Shown: piece after piece, positions 8,395 to 21,340 of the stretch
How the letters are laid out: every line of letters starts with the position of its first letter
How positions within the stretch are numbered: position 1 is the stretch's first letter
Assembly: GCA_017431725.1 (NCBI GenBank)
Contig: JAFRKN010000004.1
Coordinates: forward strand, 1 to 43,794
Reading direction: 5' to 3'
DNA from: Candidatus Saccharimonadota bacterium
Lineage (GTDB): Bacteria; Patescibacteriota; Saccharimonadia; Saccharimonadales; Saccharimonadaceae
Length of the DNA: 43,794 bases
Translations under genes and position numbers: made by a program
Notes under the pieces: generated by a model
Databases searched by the model: none
What the model was told of the DNA's origin: nothing
What the model saw: only the letters and a program-made list of their open reading frames with translations

Positions 8395-8399
8395 CATTA

Positions 8400-8426
8400 T
8401 TAGCACTCAAAATACAAGAGTGCCAA
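8400..8426 (-). promoter_or_regulatory. CIRCE operator (HrcA site) of dnaJ
   Basis: TTAGCACTC, nine bases, then GAGTGCCAA: the consensus CIRCE inverted repeat with one mismatch. It starts 5 nt upstream of the dnaJ -10 box and therefore covers the spacer and -35 area. HrcA bound here would block RNA polymerase. Confidence 0.88.
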
Positions 8427-8433
8427 TAATGCT

Positions 8434-10251
8434 TTATTTACTTCCTGGATTTGTAGTGATTAATCCCTCTTCTGTCTCCGAGGCAATAATCTGAATATGT
8501 ACATGGTTTTGCCCAGCAAAGAACAATCCCTGCCCCACTGGGAAATTCGCTAATCTCCGCTTTTCTTCTTCTGTCAATTTAAACACATCCGACAAAACAT
8601 CTACTGCCGACGCCGATTGTTTTAACAATAATTGCATCGAAGAGTTTGCCACAATTGCTCTACCCATCTTTGAACCCATAAAATCTTCCACGTCCTGCGT
8701 AATTGTCGTAAGCCCCAAATAATACTTTCTCGCTCGCTTGGCCAAAGAAAACAAAAAGTTCGCCGAATCTTCGTATTTCATTAACTGCCATGCCTCATCC
8801 ACAATCAATAATCGTTTCTTTTGTTCCGCCCGCACAATATTCCAAATATGCGAAAGCACGATATACATCGCTACCGGCCGAAGCTCATCTTCAAGATCCC
8901 GAATGTTAAACACTACCATTTGGTTATTGATATCAATATTCGATTGTTGTGAGAAAATACCTGCAAAAGTTCCTGTCGTATATTTGCGCAATCTCTGCGC
9001 TAATTGTGGCCCAGTACCTTCCATATGTAGAAGCGTATCATATAAATTCATTATCGTTGGTGGCGTTGACTGATGCGTTAAAGGATCCGACGTAATTCCA
9101 GCGCGCGCATAGGTATCAATCAAAGCCTGATCAAGATCAGCTTCCTCATTCGCTGTCAAAGCTGGTACTACCTGTCCGCCTGACGCAACTTGATTCCCCC
9201 CCAACATCAGTCTAAACAATCCGTGCAAAGTTACTAAATTTGCTCTGAGTGCATCACCCGCATCTTCCGCATCCACTACTTTCGGCAAATCAAACGGATT
9301 AATCCGTACATCCGAGTTCAAAGACAAACGCACATATGATCCTCCAACCGCATCACAAAGCTTCTGATATTCATTTTCTGGATCAATAATCAAAATTTCC
9401 GTCCCCACCATCATCGACCTAAGTGCTTCCAGTTTTACCGTAAACGATTTACCTGCACCAGATTTTGCGAACACTACCATATTCGCATTTTCCAAACTAA
9501 ACCGATCAAAAATCACCAACCCATTATTATGCATATTAATACCATACAATATACCTTTATCTTGAGTTAAATCTGCCGAAGTAAATGGAAATGACGTAGA
9601 AATTGCTCCCGTGTTCATATTTCGCCGAATTTGCAATTGATCCGTGCATTGTGGCATGATTGAATTCATCCCTTGCTCTTGTTGCGAATTTGCTACTTTC
9701 GAGAAAATCATCTGCTGCCCAAAAATCGTCTCAATCTTTTGCTGCACAAATTTCATTTCATCCAGAGAATCCGCCCAAATTGTCACATAAAGTCCAAACC
9801 GGAAAAACCTCTCCGCTCCCACTTGAAGTTGGTCCCTTAATTCTTCCGCATCAGAAATTGCCGCCTCAAGTTCCGGGTCTCTCACCCGACCTTTTTCCAC
9901 ATTCAAATTCATCGAAGCCTCAAGTTGTGTCACCTTTGTCCTCAAATTTTTCATTACCACCGCCGACTCCACCGGATAGATATACATCGAGATATCAATT
10001 ACTTCGTCAATATTGATAATGGGCGACAACCAACCCGTAAACAACGTACGTGGATAACCATATACATATAATGTCCGCCCATATTTATTCCCCAACCTAA
10101 AATAATCCGAATGAATCTCAATCGCTGATGGCGAAATCAAATCCCTTAATGTATTTGTCCCCTGCTCAAAAGCCCTCTGGATTTCCGCATCTTCCATCGC
10201 CTCTGCCTGCACCGCAATTTCTGCTGCTGTCAATTTTTTCTTCCTAGCCAT
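8434..10251 (-). CDS. VirB4/TraC-type secretion ATPase (C-terminal part of split VirB4)
   Basis: A 605-residue ATPase that powers assembly of type IV secretion or conjugative pili. Walker A is AKSGAGKSF (about 262-270), followed by TEILIIDPENEY typical of VirB4, and Walker B is RLLIVDEAWQLM (about 480-491), with a TTITQDVEDF stretch after it. Residues about 40-210 correspond to the end of the VirB4 N-terminal domain. The front of that domain is encoded separately by the upstream gene, which this gene overlaps by 8 bp; GGGAGAAAATA gives a good ribosome site before ATG. The PrgI gene at the head of the operon supports a Gram-positive or CPR type IV system. It probably acts at the cytoplasmic face of the membrane. 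Confidence 0.93.
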   Translation of the reverse strand: MARKKKLTAAEIAVQAEAMEDAEIQRAFEQGTNTLRDLISPSAIEIHSDYFRLGNKYGRTLYVYGYPRTLFTGWLSPIINIDEVIDISMYIYPVESAVVMKNLRTKVTQLEASMNLNVEKGRVRDPELEAAISDAEELRDQLQVGAERFFRFGLYVTIWADSLDEMKFVQQKIETIFGQQMIFSKVANSQQEQGMNSIMPQCTDQLQIRRNMNTGAISTSFPFTSADLTQDKGILYGINMHNNGLVIFDRFSLENANMVVFAKSGAGKSFTVKLEALRSMMVGTEILIIDPENEYQKLCDAVGGSYVRLSLNSDVRINPFDLPKVVDAEDAGDALRANLVTLHGLFRLMLGGNQVASGGQVVPALTANEEADLDQALIDTYARAGITSDPLTHQSTPPTIMNLYDTLLHMEGTGPQLAQRLRKYTTGTFAGIFSQQSNIDINNQMVVFNIRDLEDELRPVAMYIVLSHIWNIVRAEQKKRLLIVDEAWQLMKYEDSANFLFSLAKRARKYYLGLTTITQDVEDFMGSKMGRAIVANSSMQLLLKQSASAVDVLSDVFKLTEEEKRRLANFPVGQGLFFAGQNHVHIQIIASETEEGLITTNPGSK

Positions 10252-16133: not shown

Positions 16134-16907
16134 ATGAAACGACATTTTTCTAAAATTTCTGCAATTATATTGTTACCATTATTCCTCATTTCCAGTCTAA
16201 TAACCTCTATACTAATTTCACCCCACACTTACGCCGATTCCGCTACCGGCTTAGGAGGCAGATCCTGCCCTAATTTCTTAGGTCTCACTTCTTGGGATTG
16301 TGGTTTACCATCTACTATCGACAGTGAGGCGGCCCTAAAATCCAACATTTGGATTATTGCTTCCAACATCGCCGTAGATATTACCATCATCGCCGCTTAT
16401 CTAGTCTTAGGTTACGTTATTTATGGCGGTTACCTCTATATTTTTTCCAGCGGCGATCCCGTCAAAGCAGCCGACGGCAAAAAAACACTCACCCGAGCCT
16501 TTATTGGACTCGCCATAGTTATGTCTGCCAATCTCATTATGGGCACCATTCGTATTGCTCTAGTCGGTGGAAGTGGCAACATTGGTAATTGTGCCACCGA
16601 AAGTGGCTGTGTAAATCCTGATGATTTAATCCAAAATCTCATCAACTGGTTTATTGCCATTGCCGGAATAGTGTCTGCCATCTTCTTAGTTTATGGCGGT
16701 ATATCTTATATCACCTCCTCTGGCGATTCAGGCAAAATCCAAAAAGCCAAACAAATGATTATTTATTCTCTCATTGGCCTCGCTATAGTTGCTCTTTCTG
16801 TCGCCATTACAGCTTTCGTTTCCAATATCATTCGTGAATCCAATAATAATGCATATATTAATCAATCAACCATTTCAAAGGAGGTCAATGAAAACAAAAT
16901 TTATTAA
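16134..16907 (+). CDS. Two-module type IV pilin-like membrane protein
   Basis: A 257-residue protein with an N-terminal signal (residues about 8-35, ending HTYA) and two tandem copies of one module. Copy 1, about 75-150: YVIYGGYLYIFSSGDPVKA, then a helix with RAFIGLAIVMSANLIM. Copy 2, about 175-240: FLVYGGISYITSSGDSGK, KAKQMIIYSLIGLAIVALS. Each module is two hydrophobic helices joined by the S-S-G-D-x2-K loop, the pattern of the TrbC/VirB2-like T4SS_pilin families common in CPR genomes. The segment before copy 1 has three cysteines that could bridge. Two single-module paralogues follow directly, and a fourth gene lies at 18994. It is probably a pilus subunit or an inner-membrane component of the nearby VirB4/VirB6 system. 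Confidence 0.82.
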   Translation: MKRHFSKISAIILLPLFLISSLITSILISPHTYADSATGLGGRSCPNFLGLTSWDCGLPSTIDSEAALKSNIWIIASNIAVDITIIAAYLVLGYVIYGGYLYIFSSGDPVKAADGKKTLTRAFIGLAIVMSANLIMGTIRIALVGGSGNIGNCATESGCVNPDDLIQNLINWFIAIAGIVSAIFLVYGGISYITSSGDSGKIQKAKQMIIYSLIGLAIVALSVAITAFVSNIIRESNNNAYINQSTISKEVNENKIY

Positions 16908-17355
16908 AATTATCCTTCTGGCTTTTGTTGCCATGCTAGGAATTTTCAATCTCGTCGCCACCTCAAATGTTACAGCAGCCGATGCATGCAGCAGCCTCAA
17001 ATCTGGAACTGCCGCTTGGGAAGCTGCCGGATGCGGAGGCAGCAAAGATAGTCTTCCATCCATCATCACCGGTATCTTGAATGCCGTCATCGCCATTGCT
17101 GGTCTTGTTGCCGTCGTCTACGTTATCATCGGTGGTATTAACTACATGACCTCTAGTGGTGATGCAACCAAAATTCAAAAAGCCAAAACTACCATTCTTT
17201 ACGCCCTTATTGGTCTCGCCATCTGCGCTCTTTCCTTTGCCATCGTCAACTGGGTCATTCTTCGCGCTATCGGCGGGCAAACTCCCGCTTCCACAGACCA
17301 AGAAAGCACCAGCCTCATCATCAAAGAAAAGCCTATTGCATTTTTAGAAAAATAA
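16888..17355 (+). CDS. Single-module type IV pilin-like protein
   Basis: A 155-residue protein. The start at 16888 is fixed by the ribosome site AAAGGAGGT 5 nt upstream; the frame is open further back but lacks any such signal there. It overlaps the previous gene by 20 nt. A signal peptide (1-30, LLAFVAMLGIFNLVATSNVTAA) is followed by two cysteines (C33, C48) and the module ITGILNAVIAIAGLVAVVYV, IIGGINYMTSSGDATK, KAKTTILYALIGLAICALS. This is the VirB2/TrbC-like topology of two helices around a short SSGD loop. After cleavage the mature product would be about 125 residues, suited to a pilin subunit. The polar tail after residue 135 is unique to this copy. Confidence 0.85.
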   Translation: MKTKFIKIILLAFVAMLGIFNLVATSNVTAADACSSLKSGTAAWEAAGCGGSKDSLPSIITGILNAVIAIAGLVAVVYVIIGGINYMTSSGDATKIQKAKTTILYALIGLAICALSFAIVNWVILRAIGGQTPASTDQESTSLIIKEKPIAFLEK

Positions 17356-17393: not shown

Positions 17394-17702
17394 ATGAAAG
17401 AACTTCTTACAAAATTCGCCGAGTTACCAACAGTAGAACCAGTAGGCACTGACACAAGTGGCGATACTCTTGTTACGAGTATTACTGGTATTTTAAACGC
17501 CGTTATTGGTGTGCTTGGTCTCGTTTGTGTTGTCGTTATGATCATCGGTGGCGTTAATTACATGACTTCTTCTGGCGATGCCGCCAAAGTCAAAAAAGCC
17601 AAAGATACCATCCTTTATGGTCTAATCGGTCTCGTAGTTTGCGTCCTCGCTTTTGCTCTTGTCAACTTTGTTATTGTCAATGTCATTGGTGGAAGCAATT
17701 AA
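17394..17702 (+). CDS. Single-module type IV pilin-like protein without signal peptide
   Basis: This 102-residue paralogue consists only of a short acidic head (KELLTKFAELPTVEPVGTD) and the module: SITGILNAVIGVLGLVCVVV, MIIGGVNYMTSSGDAAK, KAKDTILYGLIGLVVCVLAF. It lacks the cleavable signal of its neighbour, so it may insert through its own first helix. Of the four paralogues it is the most compact, nearly a minimal VirB2-like pilin. The weak ribosome site AAAGGA lies 8 nt before the ATG. It is the last gene of the plus-strand pilin operon and is followed by a strong terminator at 17714-17745. Confidence 0.85.
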   Translation: MKELLTKFAELPTVEPVGTDTSGDTLVTSITGILNAVIGVLGLVCVVVMIIGGVNYMTSSGDAAKVKKAKDTILYGLIGLVVCVLAFALVNFVIVNVIGGSN

Positions 17703-18324: not shown

Positions 18325-19008
18325 ATGAATTTTATTGTAAAAAATACAACATTCCCCAACCCACTTGCCCTTCTCGCTCCCCACTCCTGTAGAGGTTGTG
18401 GACGTATCGGAGAACCTTTATGTAATTGTTGTAAAAATTACATCATTTTGAATCACGAAAACTATTGCCCAAACTGCAAAAATTTAAATCCTACTGGCAA
18501 ATGCCCAAATTGTCAAAACCTTCCGCCTATTTTTGTTGCCGACCAACGTTCCACACTCATCGGCACCTTAATTCATGACTACAAATATCATTCCGTCCGA
18601 GCACTCTCAAAATCTCTTGCCGAAATTCTCAACCACATTCTTCCCCTCATCGACGGTCCCGTCAAAATTGTTCCGCTTCCCACCATCAACCAGCATATTC
18701 ATATTCGCGGTTTCGACCACACTTACCTCATCGCCAAATCTCTTGTCAAAATGCGTCCAAATTGGCAATTAGAAAATCTCCTCCTCCGCTCCAATAATTC
18801 CGTCCAAGTTGGCTCTGATGCCAAAACTCGCCTTACTCAAGCCAAAAACGCCTACGCTCTCAATCCCAAAATTTCTCTCAACCAAAGCGCTACCTACCTT
18901 CTTCTAGATGATGTCTGGACCACCGGCGCCTCCATGCAGTCCGCCTACCAAAAACTAACTCAAGCCGGCCTCTCAAAAATTATCATCACTGTCTTAGCTG
19001 TTAGTTGA
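18325..19008 (+). CDS. comF: ComF-family phosphoribosyltransferase-like protein
   Basis: A 227-residue protein. The first 65 residues contain two zinc-binding clusters (C22-x2-C25 with C33/C35/C36, and C48-x2-C51 with C60-x2-C63). The rest is a type I phosphoribosyltransferase fold with the PRPP loop YLLLDDVWTTGASM (191-204) and the IHIRGFDHTYLIAKSL segment conserved in ComF. In competent bacteria ComF helps bring single-stranded DNA into the cytosol or pass it to recombination; CPR bacteria usually keep it together with pilus genes, which suits this location. The start at 18325 was chosen because the longer frame begins inside hsp20. There is no clear ribosome site. Its end overlaps the convergent pilin-like gene by 15 nt. 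Confidence 0.9.
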   Translation: MNFIVKNTTFPNPLALLAPHSCRGCGRIGEPLCNCCKNYIILNHENYCPNCKNLNPTGKCPNCQNLPPIFVADQRSTLIGTLIHDYKYHSVRALSKSLAEILNHILPLIDGPVKIVPLPTINQHIHIRGFDHTYLIAKSLVKMRPNWQLENLLLRSNNSVQVGSDAKTRLTQAKNAYALNPKISLNQSATYLLLDDVWTTGASMQSAYQKLTQAGLSKIIITVLAVS

Positions 19009-19422
19009 ATCCAAATACAAACTTGTTTCTTTGGAACTATCTTTGTCCGTATTAGACGACGGCAACGCCGAAATCACAAAGTTTACAATTGCAAAGGCGA
19101 GAAATGCAATTACCAACCCAATAATTGCATAAAGCACGGTATTTTTTGCGTCCGTCACTTTTTTGGCATCTCCACCCGAAATTACATACTTAATTCCACC
19201 AATAATCAACATAATTACCGCAATAATCCCCACAATATAAAGAATGGTATTCGTTACCTGCTTAAAAACCCCCGTATCACCAAAAAGATCCGCCGGACAT
19301 CCATCACAACGTGCTGCTTCAGCACCTTCTTGCAATGTCAGAGCCGACACCGACGAAAATCCCGCCAAAGTCACGACTCCCACAATTAAAACTGATAAAA
19401 TAAGTTTTACTATATTTTTCAT
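18994..19422 (-). CDS. Single-module type IV pilin-like protein, minus-strand copy
   Basis: This 142-residue protein has a signal peptide (1-28, ending VSALT), two cysteines (RCDGCPADLF), then the module VTNTILYIVGIIAVIMLIIG, GIKYVISGGDAKKV, DAKNTVLYAIIGLVIAFLAF. The loop reads ISGGD where the other paralogues have TSSGD. The Ser/Asp/Thr-rich tail (SSNTDKDSSKETS) is likely surface-exposed. The start is at 19422 because a promoter lies just upstream (-10 at 19432-19437, 9 nt before this ATG); the ATG at 19431 lies next to that box. It is separate from the three-gene plus-strand cluster and has its own promoter, so it can be regulated independently. Confidence 0.87.
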   Translation of the reverse strand: MKNIVKLILSVLIVGVVTLAGFSSVSALTLQEGAEAARCDGCPADLFGDTGVFKQVTNTILYIVGIIAVIMLIIGGIKYVISGGDAKKVTDAKNTVLYAIIGLVIAFLAFAIVNFVISALPSSNTDKDSSKETSLYLDSTNS

Positions 19423-19431
19423 CTTAAACAT

Positions 19432-19460: not shown

Positions 19461-19621
19461 CCTCTAAAACCCACACCAATTCTAACACTAACCACCAACC
19501 CCTGCTTATACCAAAATCATTCCTCTTTTTTGTCATTTTCCCATTTTGGTTTCTAATTCGCTGTTCATTTTAGTTTCGGAAAGGCTGGAGGGATCAAAGA
19601 CAGAAACTAGAAACGCTTAGC

Positions 19622-21340
19622 TTAACGAAGTAAACAACGAACTGAGTCGCCGTAGTCGCGACTGTCGTCGCCTGCAGGACTGGCGCCGCCACCCACGCCG
19701 AAGTACGCGAACCTGGCGTTGTAGTCATCCGTCGCAACAGACGACCAGAAGTCGCCGTCGTCCCCGACATCCCCGAGGTTACCGTTGAAGTTGCCGGTAG
19801 GGGCGGAGTAAAGCGGAGCAGACCAAAGTGTAGAGATATCACTAAAGCCATCATTATAAGTCCAGCCATATGCAGTCCATAAGTTTACGAAATCTCCTTC
19901 AGGTTGGTTTGTATTCTCGTTATAAGTCGTATAAGGCAAAGTCCAACCAGCTGGGCAGATGGATTGATTAGCTTCTAGGTTTTCATATTCATCAGTAGTT
20001 TCATTATATGTTCCATAAATACTAGCATCATTAGAAGCTATGGCTGCAGGCCAGTTATAGTAGTTACCTAAATGATACTGAGCAGTGCCAGTACTTGAAG
20101 TATAGGTAGATAGGGGGTTAAGTGATTCGTTACAAGCTGGAGTGCTAGTAGAATAGTCACAGCTACTATAGTATGCATCCCAGTCACTATAGTCACTTTC
20201 TGTGCTATTCCAATATAGATTACCTGGATCATAGGATTCTGGAGTGTTGTTTATTTCGCAATAACCATATTGTGAATTCCAAGTCCCACCATTGCACCAT
20301 TCGTGGATGTTATTAGTAGCTGTTGCATAGGTAGAGCGAGCTGGACTCCAAGCGGCCGTATCATAACTATTAGTAGTTGTATTCCAGCCTAAGTCTGTGT
20401 CTAAGTTGGTGTAAGTTATTGAACTGTCTAAGTCTAAGTCTAGATTCTGAGTCATCCAGACCTTGCCATCAGCAAGTTTAGCAATCGTATATTCTTTGCC
20501 ATCACGTTTGTCTTTTATGGTGTACTGAGTTCCAGTTGTCATGGAGTTTAGTATAGCAGTTCGGTTAGTACTAGTTACACTAGCAAAATCTTGCATGCAT
20601 TTAACTTCGCTGATAGTAGTAGCATTGCTATTACAAACTACTGGAGCATCACTACTCGCTGGATGCACTAATGCATAGATCACTTGTCCTTGATAAGCCC
20701 CAGCAGCTTGAGTTTTAGATATATAAGCAGCATAAGTAGTAGTGAGGGTAGCTCCACCAGTAGTCTCGTCCATACTAGTAGCAGCGTTCTTATGGGCTAC
20801 TTTAGTGAATTCATTAGGCACAGTATGGTAGTTATTAAAGCTAGCGTCTGCTCCTCCTGCTGTATTAGGAGCAGAATCTATGGTTAAGGCATTAGTGCCG
20901 GATGTATCACCAGAGTCTCCTGTAGCAGTGAGTTTCATGGCCCAGTTAGAAGTGTCTGGATTGCCTGGTGCAGTAGCTAGTCCAGTGATAATAGCAGACA
21001 TACTAGCATTAGTACCTACTAGTTTATTACTATTCTCTTCACCAATCGTATCGTTAGTGTAACCTGCAGCATAAATAGCAAAGCCATTAGTGTCATTACA
21101 AAAAGCTTTTAGTGTAGTAGAACCAATGTTGTTTTGATAAGTACCATTAGAAATAGTAGCATTATGGGAAGCCATACCAGTGCCAGAAAGCGAACAAGAA
21201 ACTGGGACAGTGATGTTGATTAGATCTACGACAGAATCGGCCGAGGCTAGATTATTTAATGCCAAACCAGCAATCATCATTATGCTAAACAGGCCCACAA
21301 AAAACCACTCAAAACCCTTCGTCTTTGTTTTTCTTTTCAT
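19622..21340 (-). CDS. Secreted FISUMP-domain surface protein with GC-rich 3' end
   Basis: A 572-residue exported protein. A signal sequence (about 10-35, ending ASADS) leads to a Ser/Thr/Asn-rich N-terminal region (about 36-235, VDLINITVPVSCSLSGTGMA) like the repeated surface domains of CPR proteins. Residues about 280-572 form a FISUMP (Fib_succ_major) domain: YTIAKLADGKVWMTQNLDLD, SICPAGWTLP, GDFWSSVATDDYNARFAYFG, then RDYGDSVRCLLR. FISUMP domains have a C-type-lectin-like fold and probably bind ligands outside the cell. Most of the gene is AT-rich, but codons for the last 65 residues are suddenly GC-rich and nearly all end in C (GAC, TAC, AAC, GGC, TTC). A -10 at 21371-21376 precedes it. 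Confidence 0.88.
   Translation of the reverse strand: MKRKTKTKGFEWFFVGLFSIMMIAGLALNNLASADSVVDLINITVPVSCSLSGTGMASHNATISNGTYQNNIGSTTLKAFCNDTNGFAIYAAGYTNDTIGEENSNKLVGTNASMSAIITGLATAPGNPDTSNWAMKLTATGDSGDTSGTNALTIDSAPNTAGGADASFNNYHTVPNEFTKVAHKNAATSMDETTGGATLTTTYAAYISKTQAAGAYQGQVIYALVHPASSDAPVVCNSNATTISEVKCMQDFASVTSTNRTAILNSMTTGTQYTIKDKRDGKEYTIAKLADGKVWMTQNLDLDLDSSITYTNLDTDLGWNTTTNSYDTAAWSPARSTYATATNNIHEWCNGGTWNSQYGYCEINNTPESYDPGNLYWNSTESDYSDWDAYYSSCDYSTSTPACNESLNPLSTYTSSTGTAQYHLGNYYNWPAAIASNDASIYGTYNETTDEYENLEANQSICPAGWTLPYTTYNENTNQPEGDFVNLWTAYGWTYNDGFSDISTLWSAPLYSAPTGNFNGNLGDVGDDGDFWSSVATDDYNARFAYFGVGGGASPAGDDSRDYGDSVRCLLR

Follow-up and report, generated by a model that had tools for sequence, protein, structure and literature searches.

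In Bordetella phage BPP-1, part of the template RNA recruits the reverse transcriptase (RT) of the diversity-generating retroelement (DGR), which comprises the RT, Avd, a template repeat (TR), and a variable repeat (VR) in mtd. DGRs are enriched in Patescibacteria (PMC8144416), where the targets of RT clade 2 are typically without recognizable conserved domains (Roux et al. 2021, PMC8144416). DGRs of human microbiomes are known to target variable proteins with FISUMP/Fib_succ_major and DUF1566 domains (Ye 2014, PMC4159848), and remote DGR targets are known in cyanobacteria (PMC7517822). Here we describe a gene of a Candidatus Saccharimonadota bacterium whose 3' end had been singled out, in an original prediction made from one stretch of DNA, as resembling a DGR-diversified region. 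That prediction noted that DGRs are frequent in CPR genomes. Judged from the sequence comparisons below, the block is almost certainly the VR of a cellular DGR that acts on a remote target.

The window, by which we mean the whole 43,794-nucleotide stretch that was analyzed, is contig C14 of an 18-contig, 752-kb draft MAG (estimated to be 98.5% complete and 0.1% contaminated). Its relevant features are as follows.

19622 to 21340, minus strand: target gene, 572 amino acids, with a probable signal peptide, a family-specific N-terminal region, and a C-terminal FISUMP (C-type-lectin-like) domain.
21239 to 21340, minus strand: probable signal peptide, read from the sequence by eye (K/R-rich start, hydrophobic core, and ASA followed by D).
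19631 to 20074, minus strand: FISUMP domain, residues 423 to 570.
19585 to 19813, minus strand: window VR, homologous to the TR and to a second VR on contig C7.
19648 to 19771, minus strand: rewritten core of the window VR, from the first to the last TR/VR difference, which holds the GC-rich block of NNC codons.
19573 to 19646, minus strand: invariant 3' end of the VR, including the stop codon and ending in the putative IMH signature GCCTTTCCGAAAC (19573 to 19585).
8434 to 10251, minus strand: VirB4/TraG-like ATPase.
16134 to 16907, 16789 to 17355, and 17394 to 17702, plus strand, and 18994 to 19431, minus strand: four type IV secretion pilin-like proteins.

The FISUMP assignment made in the original prediction was borne out, with TIGR02145 scoring 42.9 bits against a curated cut-off of 41.65. 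A Pfam-A search with the target protein gave no match above the cut-off. An AlphaFold model built from three sequences had a pLDDT of 32, and therefore the lectin-like fold of the target is assigned from the HMM only. Paralogues of the target gene are present in the same genome. Its N-terminal region (about residues 14 to 235) recurs in many proteins per genome in G352 and other relatives; in these proteins the rest of the target is often not matched, and a Pfam match is absent. They form a large uncharacterized secreted family. The target gene lies between groEL and the cluster of pilin-like and ATPase genes, a set covered by Pfam PF19044 and PF18895; we read this as a relation of neighborhood only.

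The G/C counts given in the original prediction were exact (115 of 180 bases in 19641 to 19820 and 16 of 60 in 19981 to 20040). The block is also the most GC-rich part of the window: only 13 of the 43,615 possible 180-bp segments reach 115 G/C, all of them starting at 19637 to 19649, and the mean is 69. Within the target gene, GC content is 60% in the last 192 nucleotides versus 40% before them, and C-ending codons make up 55% of the last 60 codons versus 20% of those before.

We searched the genome with positions 19600 to 19860 of the window. There were two strong additional matches, both on contig C7, at 89 to 349 (87%) and 2449 to 2662 (89%), and the four remaining matches were at chance level. 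The RT and the TR, which the original prediction had correctly reported missing from the window, both sit on this contig, arranged as follows.

C7, 136 to 364, plus strand: second VR, at the 3' end of the target gene beside the RT.
C7, 412 to 1278: accessory gene, 288 amino acids, between the C7 target and the RT, with a predicted Avd-like C-terminal half.
C7, 1280 to 2410: DGR-type RT, between the C7 VR and the TR, with GNLTSQ and YVDD motifs (GxxxSQ class).
C7, 2434 to 2662, minus strand: TR, without an intact target gene in front.

The suggested search for an RT and an adenine-specific near-copy in the same genome thus came out positive. The TR, which lies 17 bp after the RT, aligns with the window VR over 229 bp without gaps, and all 23 differences are at TR adenines (hypergeometric P = 1.0e-15; 18 A to G and 5 A to T). 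Between the TR and the C7 VR there are 38 differences, 37 of them at TR adenines (P = 1.1e-25). Changes at the 169 nonadenine TR sites number none in the window VR and one in the C7 VR. Of the 33 sites at which the two VRs differ from each other, 32 are TR adenines, and therefore the VRs were rewritten separately. In the target frame the TR has 18 AAC and 4 AAT codons, and each of these 22 codons is changed in at least one of the two VRs. The changes fall almost solely at codon positions 1 and 2, mainly in AAC and AAT codons, so stop codons cannot be reached by mutation. The conserved FWSS and SVRC residues are invariant between the TR and the VRs, as had been proposed. The GC content of the core is 52% in the template and 66% in the rewritten window VR; the high GC content and NNC-rich look of the block therefore arise because an AAC-rich template was rewritten from A to N. 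In the original prediction the diversified region was drawn at 19622 to 20060. A diversified region was confirmed, with the true VR at 19585 to 19813, but 19814 to 20060 is ordinary FISUMP sequence.

Homology between the TR and its targets passes the stop codon and runs to CCCTCCAG, where the next base is A in the TR and C in both targets. At this 3' end the TR reads GACTTTCC and both targets read GCCTTTCCG, with two fixed TR/VR differences, A/C and A/G, present in both VRs. The longer signature GCCTTTCCGAAAC, in place of which the TR has GACTTTCC, occurs in this genome solely at the two VRs and is identical in both. The A-to-C difference is repeated in the near relatives G361, G274, G354, G257, and G352. 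It fits an IMH*/IMH pair like that of BPP-1, a working role that we propose from position and sequence. No stem of at least 6 bp was found after either VR of this genome; among the relatives, a strong hairpin follows the VR in G116 only. Folding energies of the TR 3' flank were also computed in relatives, and a promoter and terminator scan at the TR gave nothing clearly above shuffles.

The RT matched the PHROG RT family phrog_1423 (E = 2.8e-65), and its sole PDB match at E < 0.01 was the BPP-1 DGR RT (8ub7, E = 2.3e-26). A search of viral contigs for relatives of the C7 RT found none, and the cassette looks chromosomal, with a dnaK-like gene adjoining it. The accessory protein had only a weak, subthreshold match to the NCBIfam Avd model (E = 0.0036), which matched weakly in 5 of 21 accessory family members, and a Pfam-A search with it gave no match above the cut-off. 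Its structure was modeled via a 78%-identical protein of a relative (L059), for which the model has a confident C-terminal four-helix bundle with Avd-like proteins as its best matches. Compared with BPP-1 Avd, both on its own (4dwl) and bound to the RT (8ub7), this bundle had a Foldseek probability of 1.00 and a Z of about 15, and the rmsd to most Avd-like structures was 1.6 to 1.8. Four-helix bundles readily give middling structure-match scores. Here the Avd-like matches rank at the top and the gene context agrees, and the predicted fold of the C-terminal half of the accessory resembles that of BPP-1 Avd.

The N-terminal half of the accessory is conserved. For its identity there are no more than hints of MutS domain I (PF01624), with matches that were weak and below every cut-off: 1 of 21 members matched (E = 0.041), and the G354 accessory scored 12.9 bits against a cut-off of 20.6. 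The structure model has low confidence in this N-terminal part. In a separate observation, MutS domain I was above the cut-off in 0 of 20 genomes of the order versus 11 of 14 control genomes. The absence of MutS might favor retention of DGR mismatches.

We propose the following mechanism. Transcription of the C7 TR would run in the target-gene sense and opposite to the RT, a direction suggested by mutation of A rather than T. The DGR RT and its Avd-domain partner would copy the TR RNA, misincorporating opposite adenines, and in FISUMP genes with a matching 3' (IMH) signature the mutated cDNA would take the place of the homologous 3' end. The homing targets would be the gene beside the RT and the window gene, which is on another contig, probably at a distance of about 19 kb or more. 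The outcome would be a secreted C-type-lectin-like protein in which 22 AAC/AAT-coded sites can change within a fixed scaffold. The diversified protein would be located at the surface and would probably bind the host-cell surface or other ligands. The DGR may be active at present. The RT and the window gene would belong to one cell, although an assembly in which they occupy different contigs of a draft MAG falls short of proof.

Three other explanations were weighed. An ordinary high-GC 3' end, or a recent foreign fragment with biased codons, would need no retroelement and would account for both the GC maximum and the NNC codon bias. However, it leaves unexplained a 229-bp copy beside an RT that differs solely at adenines, a finding that has already refuted it, and we give it practically no credence. 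It is also quite improbable that the window gene, diversified or copied at some earlier time, received its 3' end by gene conversion from the cassette's own target and is not a current homing site. In keeping with copying, the 135 bp immediately ahead of the VR agree with the C7 target at 131 positions, and the identity between the window gene and the C7-family gene is a mosaic, from 34/60 to 60/60 in successive 60-bp bins. However, the differences between the two VRs are concentrated at TR adenines, 13 of the 23 changed sites in the window VR are unchanged or different in the C7 VR, and the IMH signature of the window VR is intact. Therefore, even if copying took place, the window VR was afterwards rewritten independently. 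The original prediction had named a recombined 3' end as its alternative; this holds in a lesser sense for the sequence upstream of the VR, whereas the VR itself is DGR-rewritten. The mosaic identity of the window and C7/C13 target genes suggests gene conversion, which may have been the source of the homing site in the remote gene.

A very unlikely alternative is that C7 or C14 was mis-binned from another Saccharibacteria strain, so that the TR and the window VR come from two near-identical organisms. The MAG is a draft in 18 contigs, and two of them, C13 and C7, break within shared target sequence. However, breaks are expected at identical repeats, the contamination estimate is low, and both C14 (with groEL and uvrA) and C7 (with the dnaK-like gene beside the cassette) look chromosomal. 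The break on C13 falls in the following gene.

C13, 12866 to 14060, ending at the contig end (14,060): FISUMP paralogue with one in-frame TAA near its end.

This paralogue is identical to the window gene in its last full bin (60/60), and C7 starts within a gene of this family, some 173 bp further along it. Most simply, C13 and C7 would lie on either side of a single target gene, the middle of which was collapsed with the window gene in the assembly. On this reading, C7 opens with the 3' end of that gene, and the C13 paralogue is probably its 5' part. The TAA of the paralogue, about 90 bp before the contig end, is either an assembly error or a sign of a broken gene. FISUMP paralogues on C18 and C12 were rejected as current VRs, with only about 45% of their differences at TR adenines and many other changes. 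The remaining FISUMP paralogues of this genome, compared with the TR, gave no match.

The reading that we prefer, a cellular DGR with a remote target, was extended to relatives. RT matches at E values up to 1e-20 are present in 114 of 394 genomes of the family, and TR/VR adenine bias was strong at 18 of the 21 DGR loci examined (this one included). At 20 of 21 loci the RT has an accessory ORF ahead of it. Among the 18 DGRs of the genus that could be solved, the TR is without exception on the strand opposite to the RT, 17 to 175 bp beyond the 3' end of the RT; in 13 of them the target lies upstream on the RT strand and in 5 downstream on the other strand. Relative G274 has a second adenine-biased target on another contig (31 of 34 differences at adenines), so remote targets seem to recur. 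Mutation of the target-sense adenines requires a template RNA that is antisense to the RT gene, and the 3' flank of this RNA would therefore overlap the 3' coding end of the RT in most loci. Changes in DGR cassette orientation are known in general (122 patterns; PMC6642488), and therefore we read the convergent TR/RT layout as a habit of the lineage and not as a new kind; it may already have been described in the literature. A bolder reading, which we hold tentatively and think less probable than not, is that the Saccharibacteria layout is a mechanistic variant that can send one template to several dispersed adhesin genes. In this variant the TR would invariably converge with the RT and sit immediately 3' of it, the RT-recruiting RNA would have to be antisense in the RT 3' end, the Avd accessory would have two domains, and the A/C mark at the homing site would be fixed.

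The same genome has a second, unrelated DGR on contig C8, entirely on the minus strand and in the classic order of target, Avd, TR, and RT.

C8, 9173 to 10285, minus strand: target ORF, with the VR at about 9191 to 9304.
C8, 8531 to 9079, minus strand: Avd, matching phrog_3206.
C8, about 8398 to 8511, minus strand: TR.
C8, 7117 to 8307, minus strand: RT.

All nine TR/VR differences of this DGR are at adenines. Its neighbors include a 2263-amino-acid phrog_9854 protein and a tail-fiber-like ORF, and therefore it is probably in a prophage.

Saccharibacteria live attached to other bacteria. The target has up to 49 rewritable adenines, allowing about 1e28 protein variants in principle. Its likely role, in an episymbiont, is binding by a protein that is both secreted and diversified. 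By rewriting such a lectin-like protein, the cassette is a concrete candidate for how Saccharibacteria change or keep hosts, and this could be tested in a cultivable relative. If one template serves a dispersed target, then the readable homing mark would predict which genes are rewritten.

The mechanism is of a known kind, and what is new here is a clean case with a distant target gene. Like BPP-1, this DGR has a homologous RT, an Avd-like four-helix bundle, adenine-specific rewriting at the 3' end of a C-type-lectin-type gene, and IMH and IMH* sequences that differ by a few bases. However, it is cellular, whereas BPP-1 is a phage. Its accessory is twice as long as BPP-1 Avd, with an extra N-terminal domain, its TR is 3' of the RT on the opposite strand, it has a further target on another contig, and no clear hairpin follows its VRs. 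It shares phylum, cellular setting, and a C-terminal variable region with the clade 2 DGRs of Patescibacteria (Roux et al. 2021, PMC8144416), but its target has a FISUMP match. It has that domain in common with the targets from human microbiomes (PMC4159848), whereas the hosts and N-terminal architecture differ. As in the cyanobacterial DGRs (PMC7517822), one cassette serves paralogues elsewhere, with the VR at the 3' end, although phylum, domains, and cassette order are different.
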